From contig NZ_JAERRL010000014.1 of assembly GCF_016741785.1 (NCBI RefSeq), positions 62,001-126,000 of the forward strand: DNA of 64,000 nucleotides, read 5' to 3'. Numbering within the stretch: the first letter of the stretch is position 1; each line of letters opens with the position of its first letter. Origin of the DNA: Streptomyces sp. 7-21 (GTDB taxonomy: Bacteria > Actinomycetota > Actinomycetes > Streptomycetales > Streptomycetaceae). Below the pieces are notes generated by a model. It made no database searches. It saw only the letters and a list, made by a program, of their open reading frames with translations, and was not told the origin of the DNA. Positions 18,429-23,234 of the stretch are shown in pieces. Position numbers and translations under genes: made by a program.

Positions 18429-19433
18429 TCAGCGGTGCGCCCAGCCGGGCACGGCGACGGCCGGCAGCGGCGAGAAGCTCGTGCTCTTGGCGGGCATGCC
18501 GGTGCCGCTCGCAGCGCCCGACCAGATCTGCTCCCACGTCGGCGGCGGCAGCACCAGCCCCGCCTCGGCCGGCCCCGGCGGCCGGCTGGAGTAGCGCGGC
18601 TCGGGCTTGAGCCCCTGGTCCTCGCAGAGCACGGGGATCAGCACGTGGTCGCTGATCGCCGCGGGCAGCTCGGCCCATTCGGGCGGCATGAAGCGCAGCC
18701 GCCCGGCCATGGCGGCCGGCGAGATCTCCGTGATGTCCCAGCACTTGCCGCCGCCGGACAGCAGGAACGAGCCCTGCGCCGGGCGCGGCCGCAGGTGCGG
18801 CGGGTGGGGCGTGACGCGGGCGATGCGCGAGGCCGCGCGCACTGCCCGGCCGATGTCGAGCCCCGGCACGATCCGGTGGGTGGCGGCCAGGCGCAGCGGG
18901 AAGTGGCGGTGGTCCACGACGAGCGCCGGCAGCCGGTCGGCCGCGGCACCCGGGTGCGCCCGGTACCGCCGGCGCGCCGCCTCCAGCCGGTGGTGGCCGT
19001 CGGCGAGCAGCACGGGCGGCAGCGCCGGCGGGTGCTCCGACCACGCCGGATCGCACACCCACAGCCGCTGCACCCCGCCCTCAGGGGTGCGCTCCTCGGT
19101 GTCGGGCGGCCGGCTGATGGTGCGCTCCAGGCACTCCTGGAACGCGCCCAGGTCCGGGGCGGCCAGCAGCAGCGGCGGTGTGCCGTCGCGTTCCTCCAGC
19201 AGCCGGGTCTGCGTGCGCACGCCCACCTCGCCGACCTGCTGGTGGCGCAGCACGTGCCCGGTGTCCGGCCCGCGCAGGCTCAGCGCTCCGAGCATGCCGC
19301 GCTGCGCCACGTCCCCGCGGGGATCGCGGCGTTCCAGTACGTAGTAGCGGGGCTGTCCCGGCGCGTGCGCCCAGGAACTCTTCAGGGGGAGAAGCAGATC
19401 TGTCCGTGGGGCCGGGGTCCCGGGCGGGACCAT
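18429..19433 (-). CDS. Short DUF1015-family protein
   Basis: The 334-residue protein contains the family core: LLADGHHRLEAARRRYRAH (about 141-159), preceded by GMLGALSL and VLRHQQVG. It ends with MPAKSTSFSPLP, matching the family's C-terminal KST-F pattern. Normal DUF1015 proteins have about 400-420 residues and start with a PPYDV segment, which is missing here, so it is a shortened, divergent member. DUF1015 has no settled function; its fold is related to ParB/sulfiredoxin nucleotide-using proteins. It follows the ATP-grasp gene by 13 bases, so the two are an operon. It could act on the same product. Confidence 0.75.
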   Translation of the reverse strand: MVPPGTPAPRTDLLLPLKSSWAHAPGQPRYYVLERRDPRGDVAQRGMLGALSLRGPDTGHVLRHQQVGEVGVRTQTRLLEERDGTPPLLLAAPDLGAFQECLERTISRPPDTEERTPEGGVQRLWVCDPAWSEHPPALPPVLLADGHHRLEAARRRYRAHPGAAADRLPALVVDHRHFPLRLAATHRIVPGLDIGRAVRAASRIARVTPHPPHLRPRPAQGSFLLSGGGKCWDITEISPAAMAGRLRFMPPEWAELPAAISDHVLIPVLCEDQGLKPEPRYSSRPPGPAEAGLVLPPPTWEQIWSGAASGTGMPAKSTSFSPLPAVAVPGWAHR

Positions 19434-19446
19434 GCCGGGGAACAGC

Positions 19447-20772
19447 TCAGGCGGCAGTTTGCTCCTCCTTTGAGGAGGCGTCCGGTGCGGTGTCCGCGGC
19501 GGCCTCCGGGGCGGCCCGCCGGGGCGCTTCCGGGGAGGCGGACCCGTCCGTGCGTCCCAGGCCGGAGGGGGCGAGCGGCACCACCACCGGCCGCAGCAGG
19601 CCCAGCGCCTTGCTCAGCAGGGCGTCCAGCTCCGCGGGAGTGTCGGCGACGCCGCATACGGCGCCATGCCCGGCGACCCGGCTGGTGGTCTCCGGAACAT
19701 GGCCGCCTTCGGGAACGGTGATCTCCACGCGCGTCACACCGTCCAGCGCCCGCGCCTCGTCCACTCCCTCGACGGCCAGCAGACGGCCGGGAGGAAGGAC
19801 CGGGTACCGCACCCCCGCGTACCGCGCCGTGCCCGGCGCGGGCCGCGGCACCGGCAGGCCGAGGACCGTGCCGATGGTGAGGGCGGCGAGGTCGGTCCCG
19901 GTGGCGGCGAGCAACACGTCACTGATGTCGTCCGCGCCGGGGTGGGCGTGCGACTCGATGAGCCGCGGCCCGTCCTCGGTGAGGATCACTTCGGTCTGCG
20001 AGGGGCCCCAGCGGTGCCCGGCCGCCGTCAGCGTGACGGCCGCCAGCTCCCGGATGGCCGCGGCGGACTCCTCGTCGAGATCCGCCGGCAGGTCGTACCC
20101 GGTCTCCGCGTACGTCGGCGGCCCGGCCGTGTACTTCCGGGTGATGGCCAGGACGGTGTGCTCACCGTCCCGCGAGTGGGCCTCCACGCTGTACTCGGGT
20201 CCGGCGAAGAACTCCTCGACGATCAGCGCCGGCTCCGACGGCAGCCCGGCGGCCAGGACCGCCGCGTCCGCAGCACTGTGCAGGACGTGCACGTCCTGGC
20301 CACCGGAGCCGGTGCGTGGCTTGGCCACGCACGGGTAGCCGACGCGCTCGGCGATGGCCACCAGATGCGCGGCGTGGTCGCAGTGCTCGTACCGCACGGG
20401 GGAACGGGTGAGCTGGTTGACCTTGCCGCGCAGGGCCGCCTTGTCCGTGAGGTACGCGACGGCCGCATGGGGGTTGCCGGGGAGACGCAGCGCCTCGTTG
20501 GCGCGGGCCGCGGCGAGCGCGCTGGCCTCGGCGAAGCCGAAGACGGACGCGCGTGCCTGCGGGGCGCCGAGGTCGCTGAGCGTCCTCAGCAGCCGGGGAT
20601 GATCCGTCCAGTCGACCGCGACGGCCTCATCGGCGGCCCTGGCGGCCCGCCGGATGCCCGGATCCGACAGGTCAGGCGCCAGGACCAGCGCGCGTGCCCC
20701 GAGGGCACGCGCGGCCTCGACGACCGGCAGCCGGGGGCTGAGCAGGACTGCCAGGGGCTTCGGGGCGTTCAC
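19447..20772 (-). CDS. ATP-grasp ligase
   Basis: The 441-residue protein is a carboxylate-amine ligase of the ATP-grasp fold. After an N-terminal Rossmann-like part (LAVLLSPRLPVVEAARALGA) come LPGNPHAAVAYLTDKAALRG, then CVAKPRTGSGGQDVHVLHS (Lys and Gly-rich ATP loop), LIVEEFFAGPEYSVEAHS, and the metal-binding ending GPRLIESHAHPGADD. It resembles dipeptide-forming L-amino-acid ligases and the ATP-grasp enzymes of peptide clusters; the substrate is unknown. A Glu/Ala/Pro-rich tail of about 40 residues is dispensable-looking. GGAGGAGG precedes the GTG at 20770-20772. It lies 72 bases after the peptide gene. Confidence 0.88.
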   Translation of the reverse strand: MNAPKPLAVLLSPRLPVVEAARALGARALVLAPDLSDPGIRRAARAADEAVAVDWTDHPRLLRTLSDLGAPQARASVFGFAEASALAAARANEALRLPGNPHAAVAYLTDKAALRGKVNQLTRSPVRYEHCDHAAHLVAIAERVGYPCVAKPRTGSGGQDVHVLHSAADAAVLAAGLPSEPALIVEEFFAGPEYSVEAHSRDGEHTVLAITRKYTAGPPTYAETGYDLPADLDEESAAAIRELAAVTLTAAGHRWGPSQTEVILTEDGPRLIESHAHPGADDISDVLLAATGTDLAALTIGTVLGLPVPRPAPGTARYAGVRYPVLPPGRLLAVEGVDEARALDGVTRVEITVPEGGHVPETTSRVAGHGAVCGVADTPAELDALLSKALGLLRPVVVPLAPSGLGRTDGSASPEAPRRAAPEAAADTAPDASSKEEQTAA

Positions 20773-20844
20773 CCTGCCGCCTCCTCCATCTCCGTGCCCT
20801 TTCTCCGCGTAAGCCGACCGCCGTGAGGGGTGCGGTTGCGAGCT

Positions 20845-20982
20845 TTAGTCCCAGCCGCTCGTGAGGGGCTGTACCGCTGCCTCGGAGGCGGAACTGCTCC
20901 CCGGCTGGGCTGCCGACGCGACGCCGGCCGCCGCGGCTACCACAAGCACCGCTGAGACCACGCTCAGAACAATCTTCTTCAC
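20845..20982 (-). CDS. 45-residue exported peptide, possible precursor or signal
   Basis: The GTG start gives VKKIVLSVV, a hydrophobic alanine/valine core and ASAAQ, a good signal-peptidase site. A mature part of about 21 residues would remain, ending in AVQPLTSGWD. The start is fixed by GGAAGTAGGA on the minus strand at 20988-20997, five bases before the GTG. It is the first gene of a run with the ATP-grasp and DUF1015 genes and is divergent from two TrmB/LuxR-like regulators. I know no family for it. It could be a substrate for the ATP-grasp enzyme, a signal read by the regulators, or an unrelated secreted peptide. Confidence 0.6.
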   Translation of the reverse strand: MKKIVLSVVSAVLVVAAAAGVASAAQPGSSSASEAAVQPLTSGWD

Positions 20983-21143
20983 GGGTTTCCTACTTCCGTG
21001 TCCACTCAGCCGAACAACAGTGACATGCTGGTGCAGTTGATGCTCACAAGCATGGCAGGCCAAGTCGAGAGCGTACCTGTGGCATCATCTCGCCTGTCAG
21101 GTTGACGCCAGGGGCTGGCTGACGTCGTTCAAGGAAGTAGGAC
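20983..21143. promoter_or_regulatory. Divergent promoter region with paired identical ribosome-binding elements
   Basis: The 161-base gap separates the peptide gene from regulator 1. The ten bases GGAAGTAGGA occur at both edges: minus strand 20988-20997 for the peptide, plus strand 21133-21142 for the regulator, so the two form an inverted repeat. Between them CATGCT (21024-21029) and AGCATG (21049-21054) form an interrupted palindrome that could be an operator. No confident -10/-35 pair is visible. Confidence 0.45.
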
Positions 21144-22136
21144 GTGCAGGAATTCGGCGAAATAGACGCGAGAGCCGCACACGTCTACCGACTCCGTGTC
21201 ATCCACCCCACCGACTCCGTCGAGCAGATCGCCGCCCGTGCCGGTCTTACCCCGGAAGAGGCGGCCGATGCGGAGTCGCAGCTGTCCGCGCTCGGCCTGC
21301 TGCGTCCCTCGCCCTCCGGCGGCCAGGTCGCCGTCAGCCCCGAGACGGCCGCCGACACCCTGCTCGCCCCGCTGGAGCAGGAGATCCTCGAACGCCGGAT
21401 CAGCATGGCCGCAACCCGGGCGCGGCTGCACGCTCTCTCCGGTGACTACCTCGAGGCGCGCAGCATGCGCTCGGCCAAGACCAGCATCGAGGTGGTGGAG
21501 GGCACGGACAACACCCGTGCGGTCATCGATGACCTCGTCCGCACCTGCGTGGAGTCCCTGGACGCACTGGTGCCGGGACGCGGGCTGAGCGAGTCGGCGG
21601 TGAAGGCGGCGACCTCCAACGACCTGGAGATGCTGGAGCGGGGCGTGAAGATGCGCAGCCTGTTCCAGCACACGGCGCGGAAGAACCGCCTCCAGGTGCG
21701 GCACGTCGGTGTGCTGACGGCGGCGGGCGCCCAGGTGCGCTCCACGACCGTGCTGCCCTCACGCATGCAGATCTACGACCGCAGCTGCGCCGTGCTGCCG
21801 CTGGACCCCAGCCGCAGCACGGGCGCGGGCGCGGCGATCATCCGCGATCCCACGGTGCTGAGCTTCCTGCAGCGGCTGTTCGAGCACTACTGGGACCGGG
21901 CGGTGGACTTCACCGACGAGGAGCCGCGGTCCGCCCCCGGGCCGACGGAGATCGAGCACGACGTGCTGCTGCTGATGGCGGCGGGCAAGAAGGACGAGGC
22001 CATCGCCCACCAGCTGGGCATGTCGCCCCGCTCGGTCAGCCGGATCGTGGCCCGCCTGATGGAGCGGCTGGACGCGGCCAGCCGCTTCCAGGCGGGGGCG
22101 CGGGCCGCCATGAACGGGTGGCTCTCCGACATCTGA
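21144..22136 (+). CDS. TrmB/LuxR-like regulator, paralogue 1
   Basis: The 330-residue protein starts with a winged-helix-like part (HVYRLRVIHPTDSVEQIAAR, then LTPEEAADAESQLSALGLL). A central alpha-beta domain of about 200 residues follows, with EQEILERRISMAATRARLHA, TSIEVVEGTDNTRAVIDDL and the basic VKMRSLFQHTARK. A LuxR-type helix-turn-helix ends the protein (EHDVLLLMAAGKKDEAIAHQ, MSPRSVSRIVARLMERL). The middle resembles the sugar-binding/phospholipase-D-like domain of TrmB regulators, suggesting ligand sensing. The GTG at 21144-21146 follows GGAAGTAGGAC. It forms a pair with the next gene and faces the peptide operon. Confidence 0.8.
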   Translation: MQEFGEIDARAAHVYRLRVIHPTDSVEQIAARAGLTPEEAADAESQLSALGLLRPSPSGGQVAVSPETAADTLLAPLEQEILERRISMAATRARLHALSGDYLEARSMRSAKTSIEVVEGTDNTRAVIDDLVRTCVESLDALVPGRGLSESAVKAATSNDLEMLERGVKMRSLFQHTARKNRLQVRHVGVLTAAGAQVRSTTVLPSRMQIYDRSCAVLPLDPSRSTGAGAAIIRDPTVLSFLQRLFEHYWDRAVDFTDEEPRSAPGPTEIEHDVLLLMAAGKKDEAIAHQLGMSPRSVSRIVARLMERLDAASRFQAGARAAMNGWLSDI

Positions 22137-22235
22137 GGGCACGGTACGGAGGGTACGGGATGCCCCGGATCTCGGTAATCTTCAGCTCATCGTCCAACTG
22201 CCCGCTGGCGTGACAAGGTTGGTGGAGGCCTCTCA

Positions 22236-23234
22236 GTGCGGGACATCGGCGAAACCGCCATCGACGAGCTCGACGCCGTCGCGGTCCGCGTCTACCAGTT
22301 ACGCGTCGCCCATCCCACCGACCTGGTCAGCCAGCTCGCCGCCCGTGCCGGGCTGAGCCCGGAAGAGGTCTCGCACGCGGAGAAGCGGCTGTCCGGGCTG
22401 GGCCTGCTCCAGCCCTCCCCCGGCGGCGGCTGGGTCGCGGTCAGCCCGGAGGCCGCGGCGGAGTCGCTGCTCGCGCCGCTGGAGCAGGAGATCCTCCAGC
22501 GCCGCATCGCCATGGCCGCCACCCGGGAGCGCCTGCACGCCCTGTCCGGGGACTACCTGGAGGCGCGCAGCCTGCGGTCGGCACGGACGAGCATCGAGAT
22601 CATCGAGGACCTGGGCAACATCCGGGCCGTCATCGACGACCTGGCGCGCACCTGCACGACCAGCGTGGACGTGCTCGCCCCCGGCAGGCCCACCGAGGAG
22701 GGGGTGCGGGCCGCCGCCCCGCTGGACATGGAGGTGCTGGCGCGCGGCGTGCGGCTGCGGATGGTGTACCAGTACAGCGCGCGCGGGCACCGTTTCGTCG
22801 TGCAGCACGTCGAGCGCATCGTCGCCAAGGGCGCGCAGGTCAGGTGCGCCAGCGCGCTCGCCTCCCGGATGCTCATCTACGACGAGAGCTGCGCGCTGCT
22901 GCCGCTGGATCCTGGCGACGCCAGCAAGGGCGCCGCTCTGGTCCGGGACCCGTCCGTGCTCGGCTTTCTGTGCCTGCTGTTCTCGCACTACTGGGACACG
23001 GCGGAGGACTTCCTGTTCGCGGAGCGGCCGGAGCCGGGCGCGCCGCCGCGCGGCATGGAGCGGGACGTCCTGCTGCTGCTGGCGGCGGGCAAGACGAACG
23101 AGGCCATCGCCGAACAGCTGGGCGTCTCGCGCCGCTCCGTCAGCCGCCTCGTGGGGCGCCTGATGGACCGGCTCGGGGCGTCCAACCGCTTCCAGGCGGG
23201 GGCCAAGGCCGCGCACCTCGGCTGGCTGGCCTGA
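22236..23234 (+). CDS. TrmB/LuxR-like regulator, paralogue 2, with a TTA codon
   Basis: The 332-residue protein is closely related to the preceding one over its whole length; for example APLEQEIL-RRI-MAATR-RLHALSGDYLEARS is shared. It ends with the helix-turn-helix LGVSRRSVSRLVGRLMDRL. Codon 22 (22299-22301) is TTA, the leucine codon read by the bldA tRNA in Streptomyces, so its synthesis may depend on development. The GTG at 22236-22238 has GGAGG at 22224-22228. The gap of 99 bases to paralogue 1 has no hairpin. The sensing domain is less conserved than the ends, so the two may respond to different ligands. Confidence 0.8.
   Translation: MRDIGETAIDELDAVAVRVYQLRVAHPTDLVSQLAARAGLSPEEVSHAEKRLSGLGLLQPSPGGGWVAVSPEAAAESLLAPLEQEILQRRIAMAATRERLHALSGDYLEARSLRSARTSIEIIEDLGNIRAVIDDLARTCTTSVDVLAPGRPTEEGVRAAAPLDMEVLARGVRLRMVYQYSARGHRFVVQHVERIVAKGAQVRCASALASRMLIYDESCALLPLDPGDASKGAALVRDPSVLGFLCLLFSHYWDTAEDFLFAERPEPGAPPRGMERDVLLLLAAGKTNEAIAEQLGVSRRSVSRLVGRLMDRLGASNRFQAGAKAAHLGWLA

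Follow-up and report, generated by a model that had tools for sequence, protein, structure and literature searches.

Quorum sensing by means of peptides is well established among the Bacillota. In the RRNPP systems of Bacillota and phages (Rgg-SHP, PlcR-PapR, AimR-AimP), a short propeptide gene lies beside, and often divergent from, the gene for a cytoplasmic DNA-binding receptor; the signal is located at the C-terminus of a secreted precursor and its sequence is clade-specific. Density signalling in Streptomyces and other Actinobacteria has been ascribed to small molecules (PMC10075063) such as butyrolactones (PMC4748050), and strong candidates for signalling-peptide genes were absent in a 2024 search of one Streptomyces genome (PMC11019849).

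The locus described here comes from a 64,000-nucleotide stretch of DNA from Streptomyces sp. 7-21 (the window) and shares the traits of the RRNPP systems listed above, in that a gene for a small secreted propeptide adjoins a regulator gene. It differs in its hosts, which are Actinobacteria, in its proposed receptor, which is TrmB/PLD-like with an added LuxR helix-turn-helix (HTH), and in its precursors, which often carry two to five copies of a motif with W as the constant residue. By analogy, the W-peptide pair would function in the manner of an RRNPP system without belonging to that class, as the regulator gave no match to a TPR peptide-binding domain in Pfam, profile or fold searches. The γ-butyrolactone systems of Streptomyces (AfsA/ArpA type), whose density control of metabolite clusters the W-peptide pair would share, use enzyme-made small-molecule signals rather than a peptide, and another receptor family.

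Gene layout and conservation of the block

The genes and elements of the block, with their positions in the window, are as follows.

18429..19433, minus strand: DUF1015 protein with a free-serine-kinase-like fold and a DGHHR motif (Pfam, alignment, fold comparison)
19447..20772, minus strand: ATP-grasp enzyme of the L-amino-acid-ligase type, LAL_C2 (Pfam, closest solved structure)
20845..20982, minus strand: secreted peptide precursor, 45 aa, GTG start, tail ...PLTSGWD (ORF and AGGA ribosome site)
20848..20859, minus strand: C-terminal SGWD, the W-motif (W constant in close orthologues, repeated in distant precursors)
20911..20982, minus strand: predicted Sec signal peptide, residues 1-24, cleavage between ASA and A (sequence inspection)
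21023..21044, no strand: second dyad-like element close to the promoter of the peptide gene, an imperfect copy in the window and a candidate operator (GCATG-N10-CATGC in relatives; enriched dyad)
21080..21110, no strand: conserved imperfect dyad TGGCATCA-N14-TTGACGCCA, candidate operator (invariant positions in 17 species)
21144..22136, plus strand: regulator A, with winged HTH, coiled coil, PLD-like sensor domain and LuxR-type HTH; proposed peptide receptor
22236..23234, plus strand: regulator B, tandem paralogue of regulator A (63% identical)

The peptide and ATP-grasp genes are separated by 72 bases and the ATP-grasp and DUF1015 genes by 13, while regulator A starts 161 bases from the peptide start in the divergent direction. 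An earlier note, made from the sequence alone, had given coordinates, spacings and protein types that an ORF and Pfam check (DUF1015 6.5e-17, LAL_C2 2e-14 and ATP-grasp_4 7e-13 for the window proteins) found exact to the base, and its description of a signal-bearing 45-residue peptide facing two paralogous regulators was borne out. The precursor consists of MKKIVLSVVSAVLVVAAAAGVASA up to the predicted cleavage site and AQPGSSSASEAAVQPLTSGWD beyond it; judged by eye, it has a basic N-terminus, a hydrophobic core and an ASA/A cleavage site, and its orthologues (L152-L168) retain the hydrophobic N-terminus. The W-motif is present here in a single copy, and from its conservation SGWD is probably part of the mature signal. 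Regulators A and B are the only full-length members of their family in the 4.8 Mb source genome. No importer or protease dedicated to the peptide is encoded within the block.

A search with the peptide through 393 genomes of the genus yielded few true relatives, which were recognised through neighbouring genes; only about five of the weaker matches were confirmed in this way. Since homology searching with a single peptide was noisy, the regulator was used as the anchor instead, giving 17 close relatives with upstream sequence (L152-L168), among them S. specialis, S. zhaozhouensis, S. hainanensis, S. avicenniae, S. harbinensis, S. lonarensis and S. aidingensis. In all 17, a secreted peptide is encoded divergently, with its gene about 152-168 bases from where the regulator gene begins. 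The terminal W is kept in every close orthologue and the rest of the mature part varies (tails SVWD, SLWD, NIWF, NIWA, NTWF, NLWD, NIWQ and NIWM); two close orthologues have two copies of the motif (ANYWE, STIWE). Within so short and rapidly evolving a stretch, counts by codon position between orthologues revealed no strong excess at third positions. ATP-grasp relatives adjoin the peptide in L152-L168, with more divergent versions in L162 and L166-L168, and a DUF1015 match was present at 12 of the 17 loci. Two of the loci (L161, L164) have three tandem regulators for a single peptide, hinting at stepwise receptor duplication.

The earlier note had proposed looking for homologues of the peptide next to ATP-grasp genes, and the five-gene block, peptide included, was found again in about a dozen other Streptomyces species; this conservation indicates that the tiny ORF and the gene arrangement are not due to chance. 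It had also held that the link would be fortuitous if the ATP-grasp and DUF1015 genes were widespread without the peptide. For the close block this was not the case, all 11 ATP-grasp relatives of at least 52% identity occurring in genomes that carry the regulator block and in no others. Where flanks are available, the block mostly occupies one fixed site, with hemD and a nitrate-transporter-like MFS gene as its neighbours, and from this constant location it has probably been inherited vertically.

In relatives, the dyad at 21080-21110, which lies in the intergenic region of the divergent peptide and regulator genes, takes the form TGGC(A/G)TCA-N14-TTGACGCCA. A single operator common to distant relatives was considered and rejected, TGGC-N8-GCC being enriched only about 2.6-fold among them, and candidate operators are therefore claimed for the close block alone.

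Regulator architecture

A profile built from 63 regulators matched archaeal TrmBL2 over residues 6-251 (E 1.3e-14) and NarL/LuxR HTH domains over residues 254-320. Both regulators of the window have a C-terminal GerE/LuxR HTH (Pfam GerE 1.6e-8 and 2.7e-11, above cutoff). An AlphaFold (AF2) model of the regulator (pLDDT 87, pTM 0.52), in which the domains are modelled well and their relative placement is not, gave TrmBL2 (1.5e-12), TrmB and PLD-family proteins as its top Foldseek matches. The family thus has the TrmB-type layout of a winged HTH, a coiled coil and then a PLD-like sensor domain, with TrmBL2 as its best profile and fold match, but differs from TrmB/TrmBL2 in its extra C-terminal LuxR-type HTH and its linkage to a peptide. 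The N-terminal part is TrmB-like and gave no Pfam match to an AHL autoinducer-binding domain. The sensor domain of TrmB is known for sugars (title of PDB 2f5t). In the present family the PLD-like domain would be the natural sensor candidate.

W-motif peptides across the regulator family

The regulator family was found in all 60 order-level genomes sampled, with 1-15 copies in each. Small secreted W-motif proteins, in most cases with no ATP-grasp gene alongside, also lie near more distant regulators (30-40% identity), both in other Streptomyces and in Arthrobacter, Promicromonospora, Myceligenerans, Nocardiopsis, Micromonospora and Acrocarpospora. In a first strict test, a W-type secreted ORF lay within 600 bp upstream of 42 of 122 regulators and in 11 of 1447 control windows (p 6e-40 by Fisher's test); several of these 11 are peptides of the same kind situated just beyond the 600-bp limit. 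In a second test, a strict rule placed a secreted W-motif peptide within 1 kb of 58 of 124 actinobacterial regulators and in 3 of 188 background windows of 2 kb (p 3e-24), and a repeated motif at 18 regulator loci against one background window (p 3e-7). One of the three background positives looks like a real family member: this Catellatospora peptide (L208:13194-13373) contains DDSFGWD twice and lies more than 5 kb from the anchor regulator. Automatic calls at L107 (SVWL), L128, L214, L223 and L228 were judged false and set aside. Judged from these gene neighbourhoods, the peptide is constantly paired with the regulator and not with the ATP-grasp enzyme. No peptide was recognised near about 40% of family regulators, some of which lie at contig ends or have a peptide further off.

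Two to five copies of the motif are present in at least 18 precursors, most of which have no ATP-grasp gene nearby and adjoin biosynthetic genes that are unrelated to one another. The repeats include SINWD (two to four copies), VIGWD (five), DPIWD (four), DSGW[ND] (five), TTGWQ (two), DSGWQ (two), DMSWQ (three), NWEWPK (two to three), SWDWPK (two) and DPQWE (two to three). The version found in Arthrobacter and other Micrococcaceae (L188, L200, L204, L212, L213, L218, L227) has one to three copies of SWDWPK or NWEWPK and is divergent from the regulator. On annotated Streptomyces plasmids, a peptide was present at seven of the first eight family regulators examined, several with repeats (GIGWD and DGFGW three times, DPTWD and DLPWT twice). 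These peptides are annotated as hypothetical proteins, except on the S. clavuligerus plasmid; the secreted protein with two DLPWT units that adjoins a family regulator on pCLA1 of S. clavuligerus ATCC 27064 (L270:2061-2324) is absent from the annotation table used. Two related plasmids (L265, L273) have an identical terminal GTGDDMGWG and a changed linker. Ten varied peptides gave no meaningful match to a known peptide family in Pfam or NCBIfam. The precursors of yeast alpha-factor and similar pheromones likewise contain several near-identical signal units per secreted precursor; the likeness is one of analogy only, as the yeast system is eukaryotic and its signal is sensed by a GPCR.

Mapped onto a tree of the 124 regulators, the 12 motif classes that recur (46 rows) require 11 changes, which is the minimum, and each class falls in one regulator clade. 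The classes were defined after the sequences had been seen and near relatives inflate the agreement, so that this correspondence is support rather than proof. The genes around the pairs differ, and include a type II PKS (L175, L269), a radical SAM RiPP-like cluster (L197), a glycosyltransferase (L178), an aminotransferase (L204) and an AfsA-like protein (L268). No maturation enzyme common to the peptide-regulator loci was found among the neighbouring genes.

Function of the block and rival explanations

The closest solved structure to the ATP-grasp profile is the L-amino-acid ligase BL00235 (PDB 3vot, E 5e-22). For the DUF1015 protein, one good model was obtained among five (pLDDT 79), and its closest folds in Foldseek are the free serine kinases SerK and SbnI (5x0k, 5uje; for 5x0k, E 2.4e-5, probability 1.00 and TM 0.34-0.43), a structural likeness that is partial (TM about 0.34-0.45); the DGHHR motif is invariant in the DUF1015 alignment. 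These likenesses give the two proteins the look of regulated enzymes, and they are probably targets of the regulators. The earlier note had suggested that the peptide may be the substrate of the ATP-grasp enzyme, with DUF1015 acting in the same step. A substrate role is not supported, and was rejected as the leading reading, because the enzyme resembles L-amino-acid ligases, the peptide has a Sec signal and recurs without the enzyme, and some ATP-grasp relatives adjoin a family regulator without a peptide. For DUF1015, the free-serine-kinase-like fold makes a role in a small-molecule pathway more likely than one in peptide processing. One may reasonably guess, but not go beyond guessing, that the two genes together make a dipeptide that contains serine or phosphoserine.

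A second type of ATP-grasp enzyme, 44-46% identical to that of the window, is divergent from another family regulator at six loci (L252-L257). No W peptide was found at these loci, which seem truly to be without one, and such pairs fit the ATP-grasp enzyme as a target of the regulator family.

A peptide signal and its receptor, together controlling a small enzymatic operon, are probably the best explanation of these sequence data. Sec export and cleavage of the precursor would leave a W-containing C-terminal peptide (...SGWD) on the outside. Once density is high enough, this peptide, whole or in part, would be re-imported and would bind the neighbouring TrmB/LuxR-type regulators through their PLD-like domain. 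The peptide-bound regulators would then act on the divergent promoter region, their presumed DNA target, switching the peptide operon and the downstream enzymes. The L-amino-acid ligase and the serine-kinase-like DUF1015 protein would yield a small amino-acid metabolite. The proposal of the earlier note that the peptide is a signal sensed by the regulators is well supported at the level of sequence comparison, as W peptides accompany the family mostly without an ATP-grasp gene and the motif class follows the clade.

The regulator could instead sense something else, for example the product of the pathway, and the W peptide would then be an exported product of its regulon, perhaps a small antimicrobial or a metal or cell-surface factor. 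The operon-like arrangement common to peptide and enzymes would suit such an output, as would the family regulators without a peptide, but it is unlikely given that motif changes track the regulator clade, that the pair stays constant while neighbouring pathways are unrelated, and that the conserved part is only 4-6 residues long and often repeated. Short repeated cores, and the radical SAM RiPP-like cluster adjoining one relative (L197), would also be expected of RiPP precursors with one or several cores around W, for which the window ATP-grasp would be the modifying enzyme; graspetides are peptides modified by ATP-grasp enzymes. This reading is quite improbable in view of the Sec-type signal in place of a cytoplasmic leader and the absence of a maturase common to the loci, and a graspetide or ATP-grasp RiPP was rejected on the LAL_C2 domain, the closeness of the enzyme to a free L-amino-acid ligase and the many peptides, the majority, that have no ATP-grasp gene.

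Many Gram-positive peptide signals are mediated by sensor kinases, and the pair comes without a linked importer, so that an unlinked membrane receptor might sense the peptide outside the cell and the adjacent regulators act downstream of it. We see only a slim chance of this, as the pair was not seen to have a sensor kinase as a regular neighbour and the adjacent regulator has a PLD-like sensor-type domain of its own. That the short ORF is untranslated, or its association with the block functionless, would agree with the lack of a strong third-position excess between orthologues; the ribosome site, start, signal sequence, stop and terminal W are conserved in many species and the family-wide statistics are strong, leaving this extremely improbable.

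No published description of a W-peptide/regulator system was found in the open-access literature (preprints lay outside the scope), and the proposed signal and receptor look like an undescribed kind of signalling pair that is widespread in Actinobacteria. Beyond the block, the sequences lead us to lean, with some reserve, towards a large class of pheromone/receptor pairs in Actinobacteria, with Sec-secreted and often multi-copy W signals, TrmB/PLD-like LuxR sensors and several versions per Streptomyces genome, located beside biosynthetic clusters. Family regulators often adjoin metabolite genes, and many have a probable short peptide signal of their own. If the proposal is correct, adding the predicted peptide would be a simple way to awaken silent antibiotic clusters, and the receptor would be a new type built on the TrmB fold; since such short signals cost little to synthesise, the idea lends itself to a direct test.

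Proteins of about 95-130 residues without a Pfam match form a further family, encoded close to the regulator, in most cases in the interval that separates it from the peptide, at 34 of the 124 loci (for example L266:1603-1893, L197:1372-1674, L173:6387-6797, L178:6428-6841 and L206:7908-8192), and are a possible third component of the system.
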